Below, piece after piece: positions 331-10,606 of a DNA stretch of 11,456 nt. A program made the position numbers and the translations under genes. Each line of letters opens with the position of its first letter. The first letter of the stretch is position 1. The notes beneath the pieces are model-generated. The model was not told the DNA's origin and ran no database searches. It saw only the letters and a list, made by a program, of their open reading frames with translations. Source of the DNA: Candidatus Bathyarchaeota archaeon (GTDB lineage Archaea > Thermoproteota > Bathyarchaeia > Bathyarchaeales > Bathyarchaeaceae); assembly GCA_029883255.1 (NCBI GenBank), contig JAOUJL010000030.1:1-11456 (forward strand). Direction: 5' to 3'.

Positions 331-1566
331 ATGACTCTGGAAGTGAAAAAAACCCGTTCAAAATTGTTGGGTATAGTTGGGAAACCGAATACTGGTAAAT
401 CAACATTTTTTAGTGCTGCAACCCTTGCGCCAGCCGAGATTGGAAGCTATCCGTTCACGACGATAAAGCCAAACAGAGGAGTTGGATACGTCAGAACTCC
501 ATGCGCTTGCAAAGAATTCAACATTCAGGATAATCCTGTCAACTCCATATGCCTTAATGGTATAAGACTTGTTCCGGTTGAACTGATCGATTGTGCGGGT
601 CTCGTGCCTGGCGCGTGGCAAGGAAGAGGTTTGGGAAACCAGTTTCTAGATGAGATTAGGAAGGCAGATGCCTTAATCCATATTATTGATGCTTCTGGAG
701 GAACTGACTCTGAAGGAAGAGTCTGTAAACCCGGTGAACACGATCCCCTGGAGGATTTACGTTTTCTGGAACATGAAATAACCATGTGGCTTGCAAACAT
801 ATTGAAAAGGGATTGGCCTAAGATCGCTAGAACGGCAGAAGCTGAATCAAAAGACCTTTTCTCGATGCTGGAAGAGCGCTTAAGCGGTTTAACAATAAAG
901 AGAAGCCACGTCTTTGAGGCAGTAAGGAGAATGGGGCTAAATGCTGAAAAGTCGACTGCTTGGAGCGAGGAGGATTTCCTAAAATTTGTGGATGCACTAA
1001 GGCAGATTGCCAAACCGATGTTAATCGTTGCAAACAAGATAGACATACCTGCAGCTGAAGAAAACTTGGATAGGCTGAAAAAACTAGATTATATCGTGGT
1101 GCCCTGCTGTGCCGAAGCTGAACTTGCGTTGAGAAGAGCTGCAGAGAAAAAGCTGATAGATTATAGACCTGGAGACTGCAACTTCAAAGTAGACAAGCCG
1201 GAACAACTGAATGAAAGCCAAACTAGAGGGTTAGAAACTATAAGAGAGAAGATATTACTTAAACACGGTTCAACAGGGGTTCAGGACGCGATAAACTTTG
1301 CTTTCTTCAAGCTCTTAAGTATGATTACGGTTTATCCAGTTGAGGATGTGGAGCATCTATCAAACCATAAGGCAGAGGTTCTGCCAGATGCTTATCTCGT
1401 GCCATATGGAACAACAGCACGTCAACTCGCATACATGATCCACACGGAGCTTGGAGAAAGCTTCATCTACGCAGTAGACGCAAGAGAAAAGAAAAGAATT
1501 GGAGAAGACCACGTTCTTAAGGACAGGGACGTGATCTCGATCATAAGCGCTAAGAAAAGAGCTTAG
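331..1566 (+). CDS. ychF: Archaeal translation-associated GTPase (YchF/OLA1 family, TGS domain)
   Basis: 411-aa P-loop NTPase of the Obg/YchF superfamily, thought to act on ribosomes. Visible motifs: Walker A GKPNTGKST (residues 17-25), switch I PFTT (41-44), Walker B DCAG (87-90), NKID (235-238) and a G5-like CCAEAE (259-264). A C-terminal TGS domain lies at about 328-408 and ends VLKDRDVISIISAKKRA. The NKID motif predicts guanine specificity, unlike the NxxE of bacterial/eukaryotic YchF/OLA1 ATPases. Length is close to the roughly 395-aa archaeal members; the extra is an 11-residue N-terminal extension rich in Lys/Arg. No Shine-Dalgarno precedes the ATG. The last ~40 codons are duplicated as a decayed copy near 8896-9021, in front of the intact uppS. 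Family assignment is firm; the cellular role is known only from relatives. Confidence 0.93.
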   Translation: MTLEVKKTRSKLLGIVGKPNTGKSTFFSAATLAPAEIGSYPFTTIKPNRGVGYVRTPCACKEFNIQDNPVNSICLNGIRLVPVELIDCAGLVPGAWQGRGLGNQFLDEIRKADALIHIIDASGGTDSEGRVCKPGEHDPLEDLRFLEHEITMWLANILKRDWPKIARTAEAESKDLFSMLEERLSGLTIKRSHVFEAVRRMGLNAEKSTAWSEEDFLKFVDALRQIAKPMLIVANKIDIPAAEENLDRLKKLDYIVVPCCAEAELALRRAAEKKLIDYRPGDCNFKVDKPEQLNESQTRGLETIREKILLKHGSTGVQDAINFAFFKLLSMITVYPVEDVEHLSNHKAEVLPDAYLVPYGTTARQLAYMIHTELGESFIYAVDAREKKRIGEDHVLKDRDVISIISAKKRA

Positions 1567-1958
1567 CATTCTTATTGACCGAAACGTCTCTTACGTCTTT
1601 GAAAGGTTCTAGCAGCCCTCAAAAGGTCTATGAGACGGAAATCAGGCCAGTAGATGTCTAGAAAGCACAGTTCGCTGTAGGCGGACTGCCACAACAAAAA
1701 GCCTCTTAATCCTTCTTCACCTGAAGCTCTAATAATTAGGTCCGAGTCTTGCTTAGGCATGTGGGATGTGTAGAGGAACGGCTCGAATGTATGTCCATCA
1801 ACCTTTTCGCGATTTAGTTCGCGATTTCTGTTCTTCGGCCATAAGCGAAAGCACGTACGTATACTATTCACGCGCGCACCAATCATGTCTCGAAGATTGT
1901 GCAGAATCTGATCGGGTCTCTCTTAACATCCATGTTCAGCTGCCAATTCGTTAAGGCA
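1441..1958. repeat. Left copy of a duplicated ychF-uppS junction (direct repeat A)
   Basis: This segment holds the intact 3' end of ychF and, convergent, a decayed 3' part of uppS. It is collinear with 8896-9427 in the same orientation. The longest exact match is 35 bp (1669-1703 against 9126-9160). Homology is clear from about 1470 to 1860. It is weaker but still collinear to about 1958, where 23 of 33 aligned bases match the uppS segment encoding LPEGLRKLIMDV, after a ~30-nt length difference. Confidence 0.8.
1572..1958 (-). pseudogene. Decayed 3' fragment of uppS (cis-prenyltransferase)
   Basis: The minus strand ending at the TAA at 1574-1572 encodes 79 residues that match the C-terminus of the intact UppS at 9029-9811 at 62 positions (my count). 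Shared blocks include YTSHMP, DLIIR and FLLWQSAYSELCFLD. Upstream, at about 1823-1852, the motif AFAYGRRTEI (AFAYGGRAEI in the intact gene) is in another frame. A 40-nt deletion at about 1822/1823 relative to the intact copy causes the shift and a stop. The conserved phosphate-binding segment GEGRLSG has become GEEGLRG, so the usual Arg and Ser are displaced. The N-terminal half, including the catalytic DGNRRWA motif, is absent. A 104-codon frame is open across the region, but it cannot encode a working synthase. Confidence 0.85.
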
Positions 1959-1970
1959 GCAAATAGTAAT

Positions 1971-2342
1971 ATGAAGCAAATAAGTAAGACAAGTAGGGTT
2001 AACAAAATGCAGCGTGCAAGAATTCTCAAAGAACAAATAAAAGTAAAGGAAACTCTGTTTCTAGCACTACATCTGGATACAGAGAACACAAACTTTCCTC
2101 CCCTAAGCGATGGAGAAGACCAAATGGGCATACTTGGAGTAACCCTTCCACAAGCTGAAAAAATGCCCAGTTTACTATTATCCTCGGTTATGATAGGCGA
2201 CAGTAACACTATCAGTGCACGTTTTATAGCTAAATGCCTAAAAATCGCTTTGGCGTCTATGCTCGTCAAAACAATAAGCAAGCGAGAGCTTGACCCATTT
2301 TCGTCAAGCTATTTGAGAAAAGGGAGTAATGAAAGTAAATGA
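1971..2342 (+). CDS. Small unrecognised protein coupled to the UbiD gene
   Basis: The frame ends in TGA at 2340-2342, overlapping the ATG of the UbiD gene in an ATGA arrangement, so translation is probably coupled. From the ATG at 1971 it gives 123 aa; alternatives are ATG 2007 (111 aa, with a TATA-like AATAGTAATAT about 40 nt upstream) and GTG 1899. The GTG is unlikely because 1899-1958 still resembles uppS. The basic N-terminus is followed by a compact mixed segment containing FPPLSDGED, GVTLP, and SVMIGDSNTISARFIAK (about residues 69-85 from 1971). That last piece looks like a conserved loop-helix motif, but I cannot assign a family. No membrane segment or metal site is visible. The coupling suggests a partner or accessory role to the decarboxylase, which is inference only. 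Confidence 0.6.
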   Translation: MKQISKTSRVNKMQRARILKEQIKVKETLFLALHLDTENTNFPPLSDGEDQMGILGVTLPQAEKMPSLLLSSVMIGDSNTISARFIAKCLKIALASMLVKTISKRELDPFSSSYLRKGSNESK

Positions 2343-3709
2343 GTCTGCGAAATTTTTTGGCTGAGATGCACAGAAAAGGGGAAATTTTGGAGGTTAAAGA
2401 GGAGGTTTCGCCTCGCTTTGAAATATCGTCTATCTTGAAGGAGTTTGACGGCGGCCCAATTCTCTACTTCGATGCCGTCAAAAGGTATGACACAAAAATA
2501 GTGGCTGGGGCCTGCGGGACACGGCAACGCCTCTGTTGGGCTCTTGGCGTTGATACTGAAAACCTATATCAAAGACTAATTAGCGCTTGGCAAACCCCTA
2601 CTCAACCAAAAAGGGTGAGAGACGGACCAGTCAGCGAGGTGGTTGAGAAAGCCAGATTATCCGAAATTCCCATTCTAACCCATTTTGAACGCGATGCTGG
2701 ACGATACATAACTTCAGCGATTTTGAGTGCTCGTAGCCTGGACGGAGAAATTGAAAATGTATCAATTCACCGTCTGCAAGTACTAGATAATCGGCATTTG
2801 GCCATCAGACTTGTACCCCGTCACCTCTTCAAACTATGGCAAATGGCAAAAGAGTACAAGCAGGACCTAGATGTGGCCATAAGCATCGGCACACATCCGG
2901 CTGTAATGCTGGCTGCCTCGTCCCCTATTTCCCTCGGCGTGAGCGAGTTCGACGTGGCAAACACGCTGTTGAGCAACAGACTGCGGTTAATAAAATGTGA
3001 AAACGTGAACGCTTACGCTCCGGCGGACGCGGAAATAGTGTTGGAAGGTAGAATCTCAACTGAGAAGGAAGTTGTTGAGGGCCCATTTGTCGACGCAACA
3101 GGAACTTACGATGTCCAGCAGAAACAACCAGTAATCGAACTGATCAACATGATGTACCGCCGAGACCACGTATATCAGGCGCTGTTGCCTTCAGGAAGCG
3201 AGCACAAATTGTTGATGGGGTTGCCCCGCGAAGCGGCAATTTGGGAATCAGTCTCTAAAGTCGTTCCTTCGGTCAAGGCCATAAACTTCTCGATAGGTGG
3301 GTGTAGTTGGCTCCACGCAATCATATCCATTGATAAATTGGTTGACGGAGATGCCAAAAACGCATTGTTGGCGGCCTTCAGTGCTCACCCTAGCCTAAAG
3401 CATGCAGTAGTGGTCGACACCGACATAGATGTCTTCAAACTGAATGAGGTGGAATGGGCAATCGCCACAAGGTTCCAAGCTGGCGAAGACCTGCTCGTGA
3501 TTCCAAAAGCTAGGGGTTCAACGCTTGACCCATCAGCCAACCAAGAAACTGGACTGACCACAAAACTCGGTCTAGACGCGACTCGTCCCTTAACTAAACC
3601 CAAAGTAAAATTTGAGCCGGCAAAGATTCCTTCAAGCAAGAGAGCAACCAAGATTATTCATGCACTTAGGAAGAGCCCTTTAAATGAAACAGTCGTGAGG
3701 GGTCTTTAA
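2339..3709 (+). CDS. UbiD-family decarboxylase, candidate anhydromevalonate phosphate decarboxylase
   Basis: 456-aa UbiD-family enzyme. The family uses prenylated FMN (made by UbiX-type enzymes) for non-oxidative decarboxylation. Visible family blocks: ILTHFERDAGRYITSAI (112-128), the N-x-S-x-x-R pattern at 140-145 expected to contact the cofactor, RLVPRH (157-162), EGPFVDATGTY (247-257), KLLMGLPREAAIW (290-302), GGCSWLHAI (320-328) and ARGSTLDPSA (391-400). In archaea such as Aeropyrum pernix a UbiD homologue is the anhydromevalonate phosphate decarboxylase of the modified mevalonate pathway. The nearby polyprenyl synthase, uppS and DUF92 genes make that role attractive here, but aromatic-acid decarboxylation cannot be excluded from sequence alone. 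No ubiX or aconitase-X gene is in the window. The start overlaps the preceding stop (ATGA). The protein looks intact. Confidence 0.88.
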   Translation: MSLRNFLAEMHRKGEILEVKEEVSPRFEISSILKEFDGGPILYFDAVKRYDTKIVAGACGTRQRLCWALGVDTENLYQRLISAWQTPTQPKRVRDGPVSEVVEKARLSEIPILTHFERDAGRYITSAILSARSLDGEIENVSIHRLQVLDNRHLAIRLVPRHLFKLWQMAKEYKQDLDVAISIGTHPAVMLAASSPISLGVSEFDVANTLLSNRLRLIKCENVNAYAPADAEIVLEGRISTEKEVVEGPFVDATGTYDVQQKQPVIELINMMYRRDHVYQALLPSGSEHKLLMGLPREAAIWESVSKVVPSVKAINFSIGGCSWLHAIISIDKLVDGDAKNALLAAFSAHPSLKHAVVVDTDIDVFKLNEVEWAIATRFQAGEDLLVIPKARGSTLDPSANQETGLTTKLGLDATRPLTKPKVKFEPAKIPSSKRATKIIHALRKSPLNETVVRGL

Positions 3710-3746
3710 GCGCCTCTTCGAGGGCGATTTCAGTTTAAACTTAGGG

Positions 3747-3790
3747 ACTTCTATTCATTCTTATTCAATATTTCTCTTGCTTTTCTTTCG
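3747..3790 (+). terminator. Possible U-rich terminator after the UbiD gene
   Basis: A pyrimidine tract with repeated T runs (for example TTCTTATTCAATATTTCTC, then CTTTTCTTTC) begins about 40 nt after the UbiD stop and precedes the promoter of the next gene. Archaeal transcription often ends at such U-rich stretches without a hairpin. The same bases read on the other strand as a short charged peptide (see findings), so the composition may have another origin. Confidence 0.35.
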
Positions 3791-3812
3791 GCTTCCATTT
3801 CCAGCTTTTTCT

Positions 3813-3827
3813 GAAGGCTTTATATTT
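3813..3827 (+). promoter_or_regulatory. BRE/TATA promoter of the polyprenyl synthase gene
   Basis: GAAGG (3813-3817) is followed by a TATA-type box TTTATATTT (3819-3827). The expected start site about 26 nt downstream, near 3848, would give a leader of about 38 nt that contains the Shine-Dalgarno sequence at 3873-3879. The element separates this gene from the UbiD unit. Confidence 0.55.
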
Positions 3828-3872
3828 CTATCAGTAGAAATAACAAATGAAGAGGGTTTGAACCCATTCAAA

Positions 3873-3879
3873 AGGTGAT
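3873..3879 (+). promoter_or_regulatory. Strong ribosome binding site that decides the start at 3886
   Basis: AGGTGAT matches the anti-Shine-Dalgarno end of archaeal 16S rRNA. A GTG at 3883 and an ATG at 3886 are in frame; the spacings are 3 and 6 nt, so the ATG is preferred. Confidence 0.7.
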
Positions 3880-3885
3880 ATTGTG

Positions 3886-4905
3886 ATGTTTGAAAAGTAT
3901 GTCGATCAACATAAAGAGAATATTTACAGTAAAATATGTGAATACTTGTTAAGAAAAACTCCAGAAGGCCATTACAAGATAGTTAGGGCATATACAGATA
4001 GAAAAGGAAAGTATGTGCGCCCTTCCCTTTTACTACTATGGGCAGAGTTACGCGCGGCTAAACTTGAAGATGCTATCTTGCCTGCTGCAGCCATGCAGAC
4101 CTCCGAGGACTGGATACTAATTCATGATGATTGGGAAGACAGTAATGAACTGCGTAGGGGAGAGCCAACAGCTCATATGCTCTATGGAGATCGCTATGCA
4201 ATAAACGCAGGAGACGCGTTACATATGATAATGTGGAGAATGGTACATGATGCCTCTGAGAGTCTAGGTACGTCCATAGGTGCTAGGTTTTTTAGCAAAT
4301 TTTATGATATGCTATTGGTAACTGCGGAAGGCCAGTATCTAGACATGCACCTCACACATGACGTAAAGGACATAACAAAATTCACGCTTGGGGATTATTA
4401 TAAATCGATCAGTGCTAGATCTGGCTATTATTCTGTGTATGGACCAATGCAACTAGGTATGATAATTGCGGGCAAGGAAGAGAAAGACGTTGAACAAATA
4501 AAAGAGTACGGGGAATTGATAGGGAAAGCATTCCAGATGAAAGATGATATACTTGACTGTACTTCGACAGAAGAAGCTTTGGGGAAAACTATAGGAAATG
4601 ACGTGATGAATGGTGCTAAGACAGCTATTCTATGGCATTTTGTGCAAAATGCGAAGCCTTCAGACTTGGAAAACGTTAGGGAAATATACATGAAAGACAG
4701 AAAGGAAAAAACAAAAGAAGAAGCAAAGGAAGTTATTGAGATTTTTAAAAGATATGGGAGTTTTGCTTATGCTGAATCAGAAGTTGACAGATTGGCAAAA
4801 GAAGCGTTGGAAAAATTTGAGGAAATTTCTCGAGACATTCCGGAGTCTGCTTTGAAAGAGACCGCTAGGGATGCAATAAGTAGGTTGACTTCGAGGTATA
4901 AATGA
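3886..4905 (+). CDS. Polyprenyl (geranylgeranyl/farnesyl) diphosphate synthase
   Basis: All-E prenyltransferase that condenses IPP with allylic diphosphates. Positions below count from the GTG at 3883 (340 aa; 339 from the ATG at 3886). Visible: GKYVRP near 42-47 (the IPP-binding GGKxxRP region, partly altered), first Asp-rich motif DDWED (82-86) followed by RRGEPTAH (91-98), GDALHM (110-115), and second Asp-rich motif DDILD (221-225), then GKTIGND (234-240). The fifth residue before the first Asp motif is Trp77. In Sulfolobus acidocaldarius GGPP synthase a Phe at this place limits the product to C20, so a short C15-C20 product is likely. Its products would feed archaeal lipids and UppS. It has its own promoter and converges with mfnB, with 24 nt between the stops. 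Confidence 0.9.
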   Translation: MFEKYVDQHKENIYSKICEYLLRKTPEGHYKIVRAYTDRKGKYVRPSLLLLWAELRAAKLEDAILPAAAMQTSEDWILIHDDWEDSNELRRGEPTAHMLYGDRYAINAGDALHMIMWRMVHDASESLGTSIGARFFSKFYDMLLVTAEGQYLDMHLTHDVKDITKFTLGDYYKSISARSGYYSVYGPMQLGMIIAGKEEKDVEQIKEYGELIGKAFQMKDDILDCTSTEEALGKTIGNDVMNGAKTAILWHFVQNAKPSDLENVREIYMKDRKEKTKEEAKEVIEIFKRYGSFAYAESEVDRLAKEALEKFEEISRDIPESALKETARDAISRLTSRYK

Positions 4906-4929
4906 TAGAATGCATGCAATCAATCTTTC

Positions 4930-5679
4930 CTATTTTCGAATCCTTAACGTACTTGCAGACAATTCCATCATTTGATCTTTTAATTCCTTCACAAGCACGC
5001 GGCTTATGGTTCCAGTAACTCTGTCTCCAATGCACACGGCGCTTCGCACTCCAATGACATCAACTCCCAAATTGCACAATGTTCTTATATCTTGCTTCTT
5101 GATTTGGCCTGCAAGAGCGGCTTTCAGGCCTAGATTGTGAGAGGTTGCGACGAAATCACGAAGTTGCGAGTTGCTTAGATGGTCAAAGAGCCTTTTGCCA
5201 TCTTTGATAGCAGTGTCTAACATTGCGAAATCTGCCTTCGCTTCAGCCGCAACTTTTGGAATTTTCATTGGCGCAATGGCTCCAACTCTGTATGCATCAG
5301 CGTATCCAGCGGCAACAACCTGCTTCTCTGGATCGCATCCTTTTACAGATTTCACAATCTTCTTCATTAAGAAGATGGCTCTAACCACGCTTTTTGGTCC
5401 GAGTAGGCCAACCTTAACTATGTCTGCTCCAGATTGTGCGGCACCAAATGCAGCTAAAGAACAGGTTCCAGGAAGGTCTGGAACGTCGCCAATAGTGGCG
5501 CTGACTTTTCCAGTACTTGGAACCAGTGCTCTGATTTCTTTAATGACCCAAGGAAAATTCGCGCCTAATGCTCCCTCTTTTGGATTCTTGACGTCGATTA
5601 TGTCTGCGCCTCCTTCTATTGCTTCTATTGCTTCTTTTAGGTTCTTTGGGCTCACAAACAATAGGGGGCTAGTCAACAA
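4930..5679 (-). CDS. mfnB: (5-formylfuran-3-yl)methyl phosphate synthase
   Basis: 249-aa protein of the DUF556/MfnB family. MfnB joins two glyceraldehyde-3-phosphate molecules into the furan precursor of methanofuran, a C1 carrier. Visible: EAIEGGADIIDVKNPKEGALG (from about residue 19), with Asp29 and Lys31 in the Schiff-base region; GADIVKVGLLG (84-94); and MLDTAIKDGK (153-162) with Asp155 and Lys159. These match the Lys27, Asp151 and Lys155 positions of Methanocaldococcus jannaschii MfnB by a constant offset of 4, from memory. The start is TTG 5679 or the next TTG 5676. It is the last gene of a minus-strand operon with the two-TM protein and the cofC-like gene. Length is normal for the family. 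Confidence 0.92.
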   Translation of the reverse strand: MLTSPLLFVSPKNLKEAIEAIEGGADIIDVKNPKEGALGANFPWVIKEIRALVPSTGKVSATIGDVPDLPGTCSLAAFGAAQSGADIVKVGLLGPKSVVRAIFLMKKIVKSVKGCDPEKQVVAAGYADAYRVGAIAPMKIPKVAAEAKADFAMLDTAIKDGKRLFDHLSNSQLRDFVATSHNLGLKAALAGQIKKQDIRTLCNLGVDVIGVRSAVCIGDRVTGTISRVLVKELKDQMMELSASTLRIRK

Positions 5680-5683
5680 TGTG

Positions 5684-5690
5684 TCACCTC
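5684..5690 (-). promoter_or_regulatory. Ribosome binding site of mfnB containing the upstream stop codon
   Basis: On the minus strand GAGGTGA is a near-perfect Shine-Dalgarno, and its last three bases are the TGA stop of the upstream two-TM protein. It lies 4 nt from the first TTG and 7 nt from the second. The layout implies that ribosomes ending the upstream gene can restart on mfnB. Confidence 0.7.
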
Positions 5691-6415
5691 GGGCATTTGC
5701 AATAAATTGTTATATTTTTTCCATGCGCGAAATGACGTTCATCACTAGTCTTTGCATACAAACCAAACTTAAATGAAGGGCATTCGAAATTTTGGCTAGC
5801 ATTTTCTGGGCGATATGGGCATTTAGGACCTGGGGTTTCAAAAACGACACTCACAGGTTCTCTTGAATCATGTCCAAGAACGTCAATTAGATTATCTATC
5901 GTCCCAGTATCTTGAGAGAAGTGGCGGCGTCTTTTTCTCTTAAACCGAAAATGGACTAAGTTGAGAAACTCCCTCCGTGAACATTGTCCATACACAAAAA
6001 TACTCTTTAGGTCACATTCCGGTGAATCATTCCGAAAATACACCACCTGTGGTTTTGTTTTAGGAGTGGTGAAATGAACTTCGTCAAAAGGGATGTCAAA
6101 AAAGAAAATAGGTTCTGGCTTTTTAGCAAGATCTTCTTTTATCTTTGTAGGTTCTGATTCTTCAATACGTTTTGCGTTTAATTTAGTATGACGAATCCTC
6201 TGAGACAACACAAGATAAATGATCACTATTATTAAGATTCCAATAAGTGGTGTCGCCAGACAAACGATAAAACTGATAATTTCTTGTTGGGACAAATTTG
6301 TGACTTTGGGAAGAATTATGTAAGCAAATGTCACAAGGGCAGCTACAATTTCAGCTGCTGCAAATAGAACAGAGAAAATGATCTGCTCCTTAACTCCTTC
6401 CAAATCATCTGCCAT
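5684..6415 (-). CDS. Unrecognised two-TM protein with a cysteine-containing soluble domain
   Basis: 243 aa from ATG 6415, which sits 4 nt after the stop of the cofC-like gene. A longer frame to 6478 would overlap that gene and is less likely. Two hydrophobic helices are visible, about residues 12-36 and 45-70. A long soluble part follows, probably cytosolic, with a charged linker (71-100), an aromatic/proline-rich part (FFFDIPFDEVHF) and a basic patch KRKRRR (159-164). Six Cys lie outside the membrane in spaced pairs: 134/145, 199/212 and 239/241 (CP-x11-CP, and CKC at the end). They could bind a metal or Fe-S centre, or form disulfides. I recognise no family. Its place between cofC-like and mfnB suggests a role linked to C1 cofactors or their enzymes. 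Confidence 0.8.
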   Translation of the reverse strand: MADDLEGVKEQIIFSVLFAAAEIVAALVTFAYIILPKVTNLSQQEIISFIVCLATPLIGILIIVIIYLVLSQRIRHTKLNAKRIEESEPTKIKEDLAKKPEPIFFFDIPFDEVHFTTPKTKPQVVYFRNDSPECDLKSIFVYGQCSRREFLNLVHFRFKRKRRRHFSQDTGTIDNLIDVLGHDSREPVSVVFETPGPKCPYRPENASQNFECPSFKFGLYAKTSDERHFAHGKNITIYCKCPR

Positions 6416-6419
6416 TTTC

Positions 6420-7193
6420 TCAGACGCCACTCTTGTGCGTGCTTGGGGAAAAGTAGTAGTCCCTATTATTGGGGCCATGATAAGCCAGTAACGTCCTTAC
6501 TATTTCCCATGTTTCTGTTTCTTGACCATGTACCTCCAGCTCTATTAGGTCTTCCTCTACGTCTATGTCTGTGGAAAATACAAATGAGTCAAATAACAGG
6601 GGAGGTCGGCCATTCAAAACCCTTTTTGCTTCGATGCAGTGTTTTCTAAAGGTTTGAGAGTTAGTGGTGGGATTCGTATACTGTGGATTAAAGTCCAGAG
6701 TAATCGGACGTTTATAGATAACTGTTGTTCCTCCTCCGCGTGAAGGACATAGAATAATTGTTCTCTGGGAATTTCCATCGTCGCTTTCGATCAATCTGTT
6801 TATTGCTGTTGCTGTGACTAGAGGAAGATCTGGAGCGATAAAGAGCAAAGCATCTGCACGTTTGTTTTCGGCTAACCATTGAGAACCTTCATCGAATGCT
6901 GCATTCAGTCCCTTTTCTACATTTTGCAATTGTCTGAAAACGACTTCTTGCGCTACTTCTTCTCTAATTCTTTGATCTGGACTAATGATCAAAATGTGGT
7001 CTCCAATGTACTTGGAACCTTTGAGAGCTTTAACGACATCCCTAAGCATAGCTAATGCCATATCATGCCGAAGTTTGGATGCTTGTTCTTTATTGGTGGG
7101 CAAAACTGCTTCTAGTCTTGGAACTTGCTTCTCTAGAAGCCCGTCCATCGCGGTCAATGCCCAAACTTCTTTAGGAAAATACTTCTCAGACAC
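6420..7193 (-). CDS. cofC: CofC-like nucleotidyltransferase (2-phospholactate guanylyltransferase family)
   Basis: 257-aa GT-A-fold nucleotidyltransferase of the CofC family, which activates 2-phospho-L-lactate (or a related acid) with GTP in coenzyme F420 synthesis. Visible: MALAMLRDVVKAL (45-57), HILIISPD (66-73), GLNAAF (95-100), the metal-binding region IAPDLPLV (119-126), SRGGGTTVIY (151-160), TFRKHCIEA (181-189) and FSTDIDVEEDLIEL (206-219). It is 30-50 residues longer than typical CofC because of a C-terminal extension. The N-terminal nucleotide-binding signature (usually K-x5-AK-x-RL) is changed here to MDGLLEKQVPRL, so the symbol is a family-level call. The GTG start is fixed by AGGAGGT 6 nt upstream. 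First gene of the three-gene operon. Confidence 0.82.
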   Translation of the reverse strand: MSEKYFPKEVWALTAMDGLLEKQVPRLEAVLPTNKEQASKLRHDMALAMLRDVVKALKGSKYIGDHILIISPDQRIREEVAQEVVFRQLQNVEKGLNAAFDEGSQWLAENKRADALLFIAPDLPLVTATAINRLIESDDGNSQRTIILCPSRGGGTTVIYKRPITLDFNPQYTNPTTNSQTFRKHCIEAKRVLNGRPPLLFDSFVFSTDIDVEEDLIELEVHGQETETWEIVRTLLAYHGPNNRDYYFSPSTHKSGV

Positions 7194-7199
7194 TCTACG

Positions 7200-7206
7200 A
7201 CCTCCT
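7200..7206 (-). promoter_or_regulatory. Perfect ribosome binding site deciding the cofC GTG start
   Basis: The minus strand carries AGGAGGT with a 6-nt spacer to the GTG at 7193-7191. No in-frame ATG competes nearby. Confidence 0.75.
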
Positions 7207-7303
7207 CTGACTTAGCCTAATGGCGGAAGAACAGAAAAATCTTTCTCTTTTTTCCGCTTTACATCTAGCCGTGGCGTAAACGACCAGAAAACTCGACTTA
7301 CTT

Positions 7304-7324
7304 CTTTAATATTATATCCTTTTC
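7304..7324 (-). promoter_or_regulatory. Possible promoter of the cofC-mfnB operon
   Basis: On the minus strand AAAAGG is followed by ATATAATATTAAAG, an A/T-rich BRE/TATA-like element. A start site near 7285 would leave a ~90-nt leader. The gap 7207-7371 holds no gene that I can see. Confidence 0.35.
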
Positions 7325-7371
7325 CCCAATCATCAATGTTGTTAAGCTGAACCTGATTTGGGATAGATTAA

Positions 7372-8058
7372 TTACCTTTTCATGAGAGTTATCAGTGCCC
7401 TATAACCTGCCCATATATCCTGAGACACTACAAATCTGTAAGCCTCGATCCCTTTTCTCGCGGCTAGACTAATCATCTCGTCCTCACCAGCTTTTACAAT
7501 TGAGTAGGTCGGTTTGTCATATTTTGAACAAAAAGCCCCAACTTCGTGACCATGTTCAACTACTTTCTTTATTATCTGTCTAGACCTGTCGCATTCCATA
7601 TCAACCGAGGGAACATCAACATAAAATCCATCAAGATACGGGTGCTTTTGTGAAAAAACTACAAGAAGATCTACTCCCTCCTTTTCAAGAAAATTGATAA
7701 CGTCTCTGCAAAAGGACAGATCTATTTTCTGTCTCTTTACCTTACTAGTGACTGGAACAGCGAGGATATTATAGTCAAACGTATGACAAACCTCAAGACA
7801 AAGAAGAAGCGAAAGCGAGGCGTAAACCTCATCCCCGTAGAAGTTAGCAATCAGGAAAGCGGATTTCGATCGATCTTGATCGAATTTAAGCAATTCTGTG
7901 CCAAGCCAATCGCTCTTTATTTCAATTTTCGGGAATTTCTTTTCAAGGTCCGCAAGGATACTAATGTAGATTTTGTCAAAATCCTCCATAGCTTGCAGAT
8001 AATTAGTAAGAGCCCTCTTAGCAGCCAAGTACGCTCGTCTAATATCATCTCTAATCAT
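7372..8058 (-). CDS. Unrecognised 228-aa soluble protein
   Basis: Complete frame of 228 aa starting at ATG 8058, with GGAAGGT upstream. No signal peptide or membrane helix. The N-terminal ~45 residues look helical and charged (RRAYLAAKRALTNYLQ). An alpha/beta part follows: SAFLIANFYGDEVYASLSLLLCLEV (66-90), then YNILAVPVTSKV (96-107), VDLLVVFSQKHPYLDGFYVDVP (129-150), and a Cys/His-containing part with MECDRSR and HGHEVGAFCSKYDKP (169-183). The order YGDE, then DLSF, then a hydrophobic strand faintly recalls the HGxE and DLxS zinc sites of M14-type deacylases, but without their ligands. That is speculation. It lies downstream of the DUF92 gene on the same strand with a 52-nt gap. Function unknown. 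Confidence 0.75.
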   Translation of the reverse strand: MIRDDIRRAYLAAKRALTNYLQAMEDFDKIYISILADLEKKFPKIEIKSDWLGTELLKFDQDRSKSAFLIANFYGDEVYASLSLLLCLEVCHTFDYNILAVPVTSKVKRQKIDLSFCRDVINFLEKEGVDLLVVFSQKHPYLDGFYVDVPSVDMECDRSRQIIKKVVEHGHEVGAFCSKYDKPTYSIVKAGEDEMISLAARKGIEAYRFVVSQDIWAGYRALITLMKR

Positions 8059-8088
8059 TGAATGACCTTCCTAAATGAGGTCGCTTAT

Positions 8089-8103
8089 CTAGATATGTAA
8101 ACC
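8089..8103 (-). promoter_or_regulatory. Possible TATA box for the 228-aa protein gene
   Basis: On the minus strand GGTTTACATATCTAG contains TTTACATAT (8101-8093). A start site about 26 nt on, near 8071, leaves a ~13-nt leader before the ATG. Read-through from the DUF92 gene is also possible. Confidence 0.3.
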
Positions 8104-8110
8104 TATCGTC

Positions 8111-8836
8111 CTAGTGAAAAAGCATGTAGAAGATAGGATAAATGTAACTTCCTATCACTCCAATAACTAGACCAGAGAAAAAATTGATTTGCCATCCCCT
8201 GAGTACACCTTGATTTTCTAATGTAGCCCCCATCAAGCTGTCAATGAATGACCCAAGAACTCCAGTAACAAGCCCAAGAATCAAACATGGTATCCATGGG
8301 CATTCAAAAAAACTGAGTAATGGTATCATCAATCCGATAGAAACCGAGGATATTATGCATGCGAATGTGCCAAGTGGTGATACTGCACCATTTGTTCCAG
8401 GATCGACACTTTCTCCGGTTGTTATCAATAATGGCCTCCGTCTCGATAGAATACCTATTTCATTTGCAAATGAGTCAGCAACCCCAAAGGAAGTTGAAGA
8501 AATAAACATTCCAGTGTCGCCGAGTATTGCAGCTATCGCTGGTAAGGCTATCTTTCCGATCACGTTTGTATATGTTCTTTTCTTACTCTCTTCTGCAAAT
8601 TGAGCACCGCGAATGCGGGCTTTGTCATTCTTTTTGTAAATCGTTGCGCCCAAAATTGTAACATACATTGCCACAAGTACAAAGGACCACCAAGGCGGTG
8701 ACCTTGCCATAACTATCATTAAGAACAAAAAAGTTGCGACTGCTCCACCTAAATCGAAGAACTGCGTAACATAAACAATCGCACTAAATAATAGACACCC
8801 TATTAACAGCATTGCCAAAACTATCAAACTATTCAC
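8111..8836 (-). CDS. DUF92 integral membrane protein, possible prenyl-phosphate kinase
   Basis: 241-aa polytopic membrane protein of the DUF92 family. Visible signatures: a charged cytosolic loop with KKRTYTNVIGKI (85-96), ADSFANEIG (120-128), VDPGTNGAVSPLGT (144-157) and GSFIDSLMGATLE (195-207). The rest is hydrophobic, about six membrane helices. Plant VTE6, which phosphorylates phytyl phosphate to the diphosphate, belongs to this family, so an archaeal role as a prenyl-phosphate kinase is plausible. The isoprenoid genes in the window support that (inference). The GTG start follows GAGG at only 3 nt, so a start a few codons further in, such as Met9, cannot be excluded. Its probable promoter lies at the edge of the ychF remnant. 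Confidence 0.87.
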   Translation of the reverse strand: MNSLIVLAMLLIGCLLFSAIVYVTQFFDLGGAVATFLFLMIVMARSPPWWSFVLVAMYVTILGATIYKKNDKARIRGAQFAEESKKRTYTNVIGKIALPAIAAILGDTGMFISSTSFGVADSFANEIGILSRRRPLLITTGESVDPGTNGAVSPLGTFACIISSVSIGLMIPLLSFFECPWIPCLILGLVTGVLGSFIDSLMGATLENQGVLRGWQINFFSGLVIGVIGSYIYPIFYMLFH

Positions 8837-8878
8837 TTTCCTCAGTCCATAATCATTACAACATTAGGCTGCATGTAC

Positions 8879-8897
8879 ACCATATATGTTTTTGGTT
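8879..8897 (-). promoter_or_regulatory. BRE/TATA promoter of the DUF92 gene
   Basis: Minus strand: CCAAAAACATATATGG, an A-rich BRE-like part and a TATA box. The expected start site near 8858 gives a leader of about 22 nt carrying GAGG before the GTG at 8836. The element sits at the left end of the decayed ychF copy. Confidence 0.5.
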
Positions 8898-9021
8898 TGA
8901 CCTACCTGAGTATTTTCTCTTTCATTTAATCAGTCTGATGAGCAAGAGAAAAAGGTTTGAAGTCTACCTACTTAAAGCTAGGGATGTTATCTTAATCGTA
9001 AGTGCTTAGAAAAGACCCTAA
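8896..9021 (+). pseudogene. Decayed 3' fragment of the archaeal ychF GTPase gene
   Basis: The plus strand encodes RFEVYLLKARDVILIVSA, then a stop where the intact gene has AAG (AAG to TAG at 9007-9009), then Lys-Arg-Pro and a stop at 9019-9021. The intact protein ends HVLKDRDVISIISAKKRA and stops at the matching position. Upstream, DLPEYFLF lines up with ELGESFIY in one frame, and SFI-stop-SV with SFIYAV in another. A 7-nt length loss relative to the intact gene within this short stretch explains the frame changes. About 40 codons of the TGS domain are represented and nothing of the G domain. A weak resemblance may extend left to about 8860. It faces the intact uppS just as the intact GTPase faces the broken uppS. 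Confidence 0.75.
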
Positions 9022-9427
9022 TCTCATTTTATGCACCAAAACGTCTCTTACGTCTTTCAAAAGTTCTGACAACACGTAAGAGGTCTATTAAACGGAAATC
9101 AGGCCAGTAGACGTCCAAGAAGCAGAGTTCGCTGTAGGCGGACTGCCACAACAAAAAGCCACTTAGTCGTCCTTCACCTGAGGTCCTGATAATTAGGTCC
9201 GCGTCTTGCCTGGGCATGTGCGATGTATACAAATACTGTTCAAATACTTGTTCATCAACTTTTTCAGGATTCAGTTCGCCTTCCTGCACCTTCTCTGCTA
9301 TTTTCCTTGCGGCATCCACAATTTCTGCCCTTCCACCATAAGCAAAAGCAATATTCAAGAAGTGTTCATCATAGTCTTGTGTGGCCTTTTCTACATCCAT
9401 TATAAGCTTTCGCAAACCTTCAGGCAA
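8896..9427. repeat. Right copy of the duplicated ychF-uppS junction (direct repeat B)
   Basis: Counterpart of 1441-1958, in the same orientation: broken ychF 3' end, short spacer, intact uppS 3' end. The spacer-proximal block ACGTCTCTTACGTCTTT and a 35-bp block (9126-9160) are identical to the left copy. The two copies flank about 7 kb. Confidence 0.8.
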
Positions 9428-9811
9428 CAATCTTGCTCTGCCGATAACTTTTACGCGTACTTTGTTTTTGTGTATGCGCCCATCTCTCAGAATCCTCCGA
9501 AATTCTTCTGCTGCGATACGCATAATCTCTTCAACCTCACCCTTTGGGCGGCAAAAGTTCTCTGTAGAAAAAGCATAGAGAGTTATCGATTTAACATCAA
9601 GTTTGAGGCACCAATCAAGCAGTTGCTCAACTTTTTCGGCTCCTTTTTCATGGCCAAAGCATGGGTTAAGGGCTTTTCCAGAGGCCCATCTTCGGTTTCC
9701 ATCCAGAATTATCGCTATGTGCTCTGGCTGCGCGCCACTTTTAACTTGATGCCATAGCCACTTCTCATAAAGCTTGTATGCTCCGATTGTTGAGAGGAAC
9801 GTTTTAAGCAT
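9029..9811 (-). CDS. uppS: cis-Prenyl diphosphate (undecaprenyl-type) synthase
   Basis: 260-aa Z-type prenyltransferase that elongates a short allylic diphosphate with IPP to the long carrier lipid used for glycan transfer at the archaeal membrane. Visible: catalytic AIILDGNRRWA (33-43, Asp37), TLYAFSTENFCRP (77-89), LNIAFAYGGR (152-161), and DLIIRTSGEGRLSGFLLWQSAYSEL (from 205) with Arg209, Arg215, Ser217 and Glu227. Length is normal. The start is 4 nt after the stop of the phosphorylase gene, with GAGGTTTGG before it, so the two are one transcription unit. Its 3' half exists again as a decayed copy at 1572-1958. Confidence 0.93.
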   Translation of the reverse strand: MLKTFLSTIGAYKLYEKWLWHQVKSGAQPEHIAIILDGNRRWASGKALNPCFGHEKGAEKVEQLLDWCLKLDVKSITLYAFSTENFCRPKGEVEEIMRIAAEEFRRILRDGRIHKNKVRVKVIGRARLLPEGLRKLIMDVEKATQDYDEHFLNIAFAYGGRAEIVDAARKIAEKVQEGELNPEKVDEQVFEQYLYTSHMPRQDADLIIRTSGEGRLSGFLLWQSAYSELCFLDVYWPDFRLIDLLRVVRTFERRKRRFGA

Positions 9812-9814
9812 TCT

Positions 9815-10606
9815 TTATCCAAACCTCGCGTCTCTAAGCGCGTTGGCACAGGGACAATTACGTTTGTGTGGTAAGGTCTTGATGGCTTCAATTAAAACTT
9901 GCTCTATCTTAGGCACAACGTTCTTTGACACTTTTGAGAGTTCAAGTGCTGTTAATCTTTCTTGTATGCCGGCAGCCATGTTTGAAACGTAACAGATAGA
10001 TGCATAGCACATTTCAAGCTCCCTCGCAAGCACAGCTTCCGGAATGCCAGTCATCCCGACAACTTCGCAGCCCAAACGTCTAAACATCTCGATTTCGGCA
10101 GGAGTTTCGTAGCGGGGTCCCTCTGTGCAAACCAGCACGGCTTTATTTCGTACGTTAAATCCGAGTCTCCTCGCTGTTTCAATTAGCAACTTTCGGATTT
10201 CAGGACAGTAGGGCTGAGAAACGTCAATGTGAGTTACAGGGGCTTTATCGAAAAAAGTTGTGCAGCGAAGTTTTGTGAAATCAACAAAATCATCTGGAAC
10301 AACGATGTCACCAGGTTTAAAGTTGAGATTTATTGCACCAACAGCGTTTGTAGCTAAAATTCTCTCTACACCAATTTTGTAGAGCGCGTAGATGTTTGCC
10401 TTGTAATTTATCTTATGCGGAGGAATGGAATGGTTTGGGCCGTGCCGTAGGAGAAGAACTATTCTTTTCCTATTTATTTTTCCAACATACAAGGGCGCAG
10501 GTATCCCGTAGGGTGTTCCCAAACGCAGCTGTCTTGCTTTTCCTAATAGTTTCTCGAACCCTGTTCCGCCGATAATTGCAATCTCAGTCTTCTCCGAATT
10601 CTTCAA
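9815..10606 (-). CDS. MTAP/MTIP-type purine nucleoside phosphorylase
   Basis: 263-aa family-2 nucleoside phosphorylase, which splits 5'-methylthio-nucleosides or purine nucleosides with phosphate. Visible: IAIIGGTGF (9-17), phosphate-binding LRHGPNH (53-59), INYKANIYAL (66-75), TEGPRYETPAEIEMFR (161-176), VGMTGIPEAVLAREL (183-197) and VSNMAAG (207-213). Adenine-specific MTAPs have T-D-x-D at this last site; here it is S-N209-M-A211, as in 6-oxopurine-preferring enzymes. Methylthioinosine, inosine or guanosine is therefore a likelier substrate than methylthioadenosine. C251-P-C253 near the C-terminus matches the CxC disulfide of thermophilic archaeal members. The start overlaps the end of the DUF373 gene by 23 nt. 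Family call is firm, specificity moderate. Confidence 0.9.
   Translation of the reverse strand: MKNSEKTEIAIIGGTGFEKLLGKARQLRLGTPYGIPAPLYVGKINRKRIVLLLRHGPNHSIPPHKINYKANIYALYKIGVERILATNAVGAINLNFKPGDIVVPDDFVDFTKLRCTTFFDKAPVTHIDVSQPYCPEIRKLLIETARRLGFNVRNKAVLVCTEGPRYETPAEIEMFRRLGCEVVGMTGIPEAVLARELEMCYASICYVSNMAAGIQERLTALELSKVSKNVVPKIEQVLIEAIKTLPHKRNCPCANALRDARFG

Follow-up and report, generated by a model that had tools for sequence, protein, structure and literature searches.

The window, the whole 11,456-nucleotide stretch analysed, contains an unusually readable scar of gene import: two direct copies of the ychF-uppS junction, at 1462-1852 and 8921-9349, enclose 7.1 kb of DNA whose genes appear from their affinities to be foreign to this site. 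The left copy combines an intact ychF with a decayed 3' fragment of uppS, and the right copy a decayed 3' remnant of ychF with an intact uppS. The processes themselves are already known; what is seen here is a well-preserved insertion of foreign genes with partial duplication of the flanks. The features, with strand and description, are:

331-1566, +, intact ychF, archaeal YchF-related YGR210-like GTPase, left flank (PF08438, TGS, NF007171)
1462-1571, +, left junction copy, 3' part of ychF plus spacer (aligns with 8921-9028)
1572-1852, -, decayed 3' end of uppS spanning roughly codons 155-260, with an internal loss of about 40 nt (nhmmer, alignment, residues)
1853-2006, no strand, left seam with fading uppS homology (profile search and alignment); presumed promoter region of the next genes
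2007-2342, +, small "partner" gene, located ahead of UbiD in relatives and diverged here (28-41% where it matched, in 24 of 29 loci)
2339-3709, +, full-length UbiD-family decarboxylase, xenologous to the broken gene on contig C91 (TIGR00148 above cut-off)
3883-4905, +, trans-prenyl diphosphate synthase (near full-length relatives 26-32%, short pieces up to 40%)
4930-5679, -, MfnB-type (5-formylfuran-3-yl)methyl phosphate synthase (passes the Pfam cut-off and narrowly misses that of NCBIfam, with 337.5 of 341 bits)
5684-6478, -, protein o5684 (hydrophobic stretches by eye; overlaps the CofC-like gene)
6420-7193, -, CofC-like guanylyltransferase (passes the Pfam cut-off and misses that of NCBIfam, with 93.6 of 105 bits)
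7372-8058, -, o7372 (pairs with DUF92 on other contigs)
8111-8836, -, DUF92 membrane protein (passes the Pfam cut-off and misses that of TIGR00297, with 112.9 of 205.9 bits)
8921-9018, +, decayed 3' remnant of ychF, right junction copy (nhmmer 8921-9015, alignment)
9029-9811, -, intact uppS, cis-prenyl transferase, on the right flank (as far as about 9349, its 3' part belongs to the right junction copy)
9815-10606, -, MTAP-type phosphorylase, ancestral neighbour upstream of uppS (matched in relatives' uppS loci)

Reciprocal copies of the ychF-uppS junction

An earlier note on this DNA had described the two junctions as reciprocal and had proposed aligning 1400-2000 with 8840-9450 to define their ends. 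The reciprocal arrangement is borne out: when 1400-2000 and 8837-9500 are aligned with gaps, the score is 444, whereas none of 200 shuffles exceeds 115; the firm part of the alignment comprises 1462-1852 and 8921-9349, and DNA profiles match on both sides. On the left, an uppS profile built from the genome's own gene and those of relatives matches at 1852-1578 (nhmmer, E 4e-68, model positions 463-777 of 780); the fragment, which the note had ended at 1822, reaches about 1852-1870. On the right, a ychF profile of 28 sequences matches at 8921-9015 (nhmmer, E 7e-10), and this remnant displays frame changes and stops when translated. The uppS parts of the two copies (1572-1821 and 9029-9278) are 81% identical, and in the junction alignment about 40 nt are missing from the left copy at 1821/1822. 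The insert extends from about 1853/1870 to 8920.

Among 46 residues that are invariant across the uppS proteins of 29 relatives, five are changed in the left fragment (E187G, P204S, T210A, R215G and S217R) and three in the intact own uppS. The 35-bp exact block reported in the earlier note is present in both copies. In this region the longest exact match between the own uppS and any of the 29 relatives is 21 bp; since, however, a 36-bp match occurs in one of the 406 pairings of relatives, between different genera, the 35-bp block alone is little proof. A full-length uppS pseudogene extending to 2340 was considered and rejected, because the gapped match upstream of 1823, although it exceeded 500 shuffles, scores 110.5, the same as an unrelated piece of the window, and because the profile match ended at 1852. 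In the junction alignment, a short extension of the left fragment as far as 1962 is possible.

A further rival is an assembly or binning artefact that joined pieces of different strains. The source genome (G000), judged from its gene content to be probably that of a Bathyarchaeia-like archaeon, is a draft of 2.14 Mb in 156 contigs, 91.4% complete and with 4.97% contamination. Moreover, contig C24 (18,723 bp) starts at window position 1430, near the left repeat and inside ychF. From there on, window and C24 are identical over 10,027 bases, possibly reflecting the same reads, and both seams lie inside this part. The copies differ by about 19%, in our judgement more than a misjoin driven by repeats would allow; an artefact would also take two misjoins, truncated reciprocally, and the broken native UbiD gene on contig C91 provides separate support. 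We therefore regard an artefact as very improbable. The first 1,429 bases of the window have no match in C24, and the 5' part of ychF has none in the G000 contigs; positions 1-1429 lie to the left of the first base of C24, the window stemming from a longer version of the contig.

Gene order at the junction in relatives

Gene order was compared in 60 genomes including G000 itself; where a gene is split over contigs, the piece with the 3' end was counted (uppS of G019 and G050, ychF of G033). uppS and ychF were each found in 56 genomes, the same four of the 59 relatives lacking both. Among the 55 relatives with both genes, 44 have an empty site without repeat, at which the two genes are convergent and 2-36 bp apart; the genes lie within 1.3 kb of each other in 50, 32.5 kb apart in one and on different contigs in four. 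In the uppS loci of 29 relatives, ychF adjoins uppS in convergent orientation in 28, and MTAP lies on the other side of uppS in 26 (weakly matched in one), an arrangement that the right end of the window shares. Thus, ychF and uppS are ancestral neighbours, as the earlier note had argued from the junctions, and because the order ychF-uppS-MTAP is conserved in relatives, the block interrupts an old neighbourhood. The note had named two observations that would speak against its reading, a block order common to all relatives and a ychF remnant no better than chance. Neither is seen: most relatives have the convergent junction without the block, and the remnant matches the ychF profile at E 7e-10.

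The name ychF used in the note holds in that the product is a YchF-related GTPase, but it is of the archaeal YGR210-like kind, NF007171 being above and TIGR00092 below cut-off. Its best matches in relatives are at 62-87%; ychF and MTAP are closest to G016 and G020, and uppS is closest to G006 and G014 by a margin of about one point.

Among the genomes examined, the reciprocal scar is seen in this one alone, and the 29 uppS loci of relatives contain no second piece of uppS or ychF. We also considered that the junction might be a recurrent hot spot for duplication and rejected this idea: in five genomes the genes are split, either by 32.5 kb or between contigs, in six they are separated by gaps of 191-1282 bp, and a profile search of 13 loci from nine of these 11 genomes, with G054 and G059 left out, detected no remnant above threshold (best E 0.046). 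In the single genome with the 32.5-kb gap, another member of the order (G043:C2:11000-47500, L196-L197), the convergent direction is kept, the first 20 kb of the gap hold genes that by eye are transporter-like and glycosidase-like, and the gap contains no ychF or uppS remnant above threshold. Second uppS matches occur in six relatives (G019, G020, G040, G042, G050 and G051) and look like near full-length paralogs or pieces split over contigs; at G020:C9:10068-10738 there is a second, distant uppS-like gene with 31-46% identity and two stops.

Genes of the block and their affinities

From left to right, the block carries the small gene and the genes for UbiD, the trans-prenyl synthase, MfnB, o5684, the CofC-like protein, o7372 and DUF92. 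The possibility that it is a duplicate of genes beside ychF and uppS was rejected, as those block genes that were sought lie elsewhere or are missing in the relatives. UbiD is found in 58 of the 59 relatives, in 42 of them at 57-70% and in 16 at 39-42%, and MfnB in 16 of the 59 at 42-57%. The synthase has 26-32% identity to the synthases of relatives, and an ordinary trans-prenyl synthase, 85% identical to that of G020, is present on contig C30 of the same genome. The CofC-like protein reaches at most 35% to genes of relatives and, in a large protein collection, matches itself and one remote protein at 28%.

The last two genes seem to be a rare pair by their distribution. DUF92 is absent from all 59 relatives and is found at 25-35% in 12 of 255 other genomes of the class, and o7372 has one weak match, with stops, in 397 other genomes of the phylum. 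In the large protein collection both seem to occur together on five contigs besides their own, contigs that were equated solely by equal size (301914, 10709, 1983, 9713 and 15121). Matches there include P0066, at 87% to o7372, and P0002, at 76% to DUF92. o7372 matches no Pfam or NCBIfam family; its predicted structure (pLDDT 82) resembles the folds of M14/AstE-like zinc peptidases, with a best query TM of 0.66-0.68. DUF92 did not lead to a donor: relatives of DUF92 occur at 71 loci of the genome collection at 25-38%, with one short piece at 43%, none of them as close as the proteins at 52-76% in the large protein collection.

These affinities bear on the earlier claim that the genes arrived later and as a unit. 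The later arrival stands; "as a unit" is not established because the block genes differ in affinity. The block could have been built up stepwise, by several insertions or rearrangements at one seam or by assembly before arrival, with, for example, an archaeon of the same order contributing partner and UbiD, and a distant one contributing o7372-DUF92. Such a history, which is compatible with the other explanations, would account for the range from UbiD through MfnB and the synthase to the essentially absent o7372 and DUF92, and for gene GC contents that span 0.39 to 0.48; on the other hand, there is only one pair of junction remnants, and an unsampled single donor could hold all the block genes. 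We rate it at somewhat below an even chance. Composition itself is little informative on the origin of the block genes: measured against 800-base pieces of the host, the synthase slightly exceeds the upper 5% limit, DUF92 falls slightly short of it and the other genes are within it.

No sign of a mobile carrier was detected, nor was a circle or a donor. Pfam/NCBIfam-type profiles identify no integrase or transposase among the block proteins, none of the eight block proteins matches a PHROGs phage family, no tRNA is present in the 18.7 kb of C24, and none of the inverted-repeat pairs listed for the window is placed at both block ends, in agreement with the earlier note, which had seen no integrase, IS or inverted repeat. 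o7372 has no match in plasmids, and neither o7372 nor DUF92 has one in viral contigs. The duplication comprises about 0.4 kb, as opposed to the few bases of a transposon target duplication. Thus, the block shows neither the integrase and tRNA of an integrase-mediated genomic island nor the transposase, terminal inverted repeats and few-base duplication of a transposon.

UbiD and its partner gene

The partner gene lies before UbiD in 27 of 29 loci of relatives, the other two loci starting at a contig end, and the pair in the block is a diverged version of the pair that relatives keep elsewhere. In G000 the native place is on contig C91, where nth, partner, UbiD and CBS follow each other as in G020 and G016; clp1 is next on C91 and in G016, and has no match in the G020 stretch. 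The partner and nth of C91 are 84-87% identical to those of G020, and the partner gene is still an open frame. The native UbiD gene, however, is reduced to about 370 frameshifted bases, some 1 kb having been lost. Because the native gene is broken at its original locus, the imported UbiD is the intact one. Block UbiD has 68% identity to that of G020, while the UbiD proteins of G020, G016, G010, G014 and G030 are mostly 75-85% identical to each other among the matches listed; in a FastTree tree that took in partial rows and a long-branched C30 piece, block UbiD is placed beside UbiD proteins of other families of the order. Block UbiD thus looks like an imported copy, and the sequence comparisons fit a displaced replacement for the broken native gene.

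Contig C30 (L194) carries genes for the large and small subunits of AcnX and for a UbiD of a second type, 87% identical to that of G031, upstream of a native-looking run of IDI2, GGPS and GltX. No AcnX or UbiD match was found upstream of IDI2 in the stretches of G020, G016 and G030, and AcnX-UbiD on C30 may be a second import. A passage of PMC11052028 describes AcnX and AMPD as marks of an archaea-type mevalonate pathway; going by that passage and by its position beside AcnX, the C30 UbiD is the likelier AMPD. It could also be the C30 UbiD, instead of block UbiD, that made the loss of native UbiD tolerable.

Discussion

Combining the junction copies with the gene order in relatives and the fate of the native UbiD gene, we suggest that the chromosome underwent a single homologous crossover with a DNA molecule, circular or arranged head to tail, that had a related junction piece, a reading to which we give roughly equal weight for and against. 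In this scheme, (i) the incoming DNA would have carried a related ychF-uppS junction piece, (ii) about 7 kb of foreign chromosomal-type DNA would have been inserted exactly at the convergent ychF/uppS junction, with about 0.4 kb of the junction duplicated around it, (iii) the complete ychF would have been kept on the left and the complete uppS on the right, and the two redundant ends would subsequently have decayed, and (iv) the insert would have brought the partner-UbiD pair, with the imported UbiD now the intact copy and possibly the functional replacement of the native one.

The geometry X-D-block-D-Y is the outcome of a circle crossover or of a D-duplicating insertion alike, and the earlier note had rightly pointed out that a tandem duplication followed by insertion would look the same. 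A target-duplicating insertion, either by capture of a linear fragment between unequal sister ends at a break or by native tandem duplication of the junction and subsequent insertion, would make both junction copies native and place all divergence after the event. The substitutions at invariant residues, the deletion within the fragment and the altered frames of the ychF remnant would then be decay in place, and at third positions the fragment is at 0.70 to the own uppS, compared to at most 0.59 for the 29 relatives, which suits a native copy. However, the fragment differs at 22 of 164 first and second positions and at 25 of 82 third positions. A rough neutral-decay model, with assumed factors and 21 differences entered for the 22, predicts 16 third-position differences (P about 0.03), weakly suggesting divergence while functional. 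Branch lengths by codon position on a fixed tree agree with this, at 0.13 versus 0.46 for the fragment, 0.08 versus 0.33 for the own uppS and 0.06 versus 1.14 for the median of the relatives, although the intact own uppS itself has a raised first/second-position rate. When the fragment and the own uppS are constrained to pair, the tree lies 25 log units below the free one (P-AU 0.09) and is excluded by bp-RELL and c-ELW, two of five other measures. The third-position excess and the worse forced tree would mildly favour an uppS copy that diverged elsewhere. The fragment comparison covers only 82 codons, with third positions near saturation; placement of the fragment beside L018/L022 has 53% support, and the AU test, on quick-search trees and with 5000 replicates, fewer than the program advises, keeps all five placements of the fragment. 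The lack of a second uppS or ychF piece in the 29 uppS loci of relatives also speaks against a target-duplicating insertion, which we consider a serious contender, though less likely than the circle crossover.

The earlier interpretation is in our view largely right and partly supported. A more far-reaching reading, in which an integrase-free circle was captured via a short, diverged core-gene junction and the imported UbiD-partner pair displaced a distant native UbiD, is doubtful; if it is true, the seam, the cargo and the lost native gene of one transfer are readable in one genome. When archaeal chromosomes import DNA independently of an integrase, usually nothing but the foreign genes can be seen and their entry is untraced. 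In the present genome the seams can still be read, the ancestral order is documented by many relatives and the native gene that was probably displaced is visibly broken, providing a concrete test case for the uptake of gene blocks by archaea known from draft genomes, and the rare o7372-DUF92 pair is recorded beside isoprenoid and cofactor genes.

Campbell-type integration is the integration of circular DNA by a single crossover. The window resembles it in that the insert is flanked by direct copies of a shared segment, each of which completes a gene on one side, and differs from it in that no circle, replication gene or integrase is seen and that the shared segment is only about 0.4 kb, with copies 19% diverged. 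A second parallel is homology-facilitated illegitimate recombination in transformation, in which foreign DNA has one homologous anchor; to our knowledge, this process does not normally leave both truncated copies. Finally, the fate of UbiD parallels xenologous gene displacement. Unlike in such displacement, the imported pair resides at another place and the native partner is still an open frame; nevertheless, the imported UbiD-partner pair is intact and the native UbiD broken, and displacement of the native gene is, judging from the two loci, probable.
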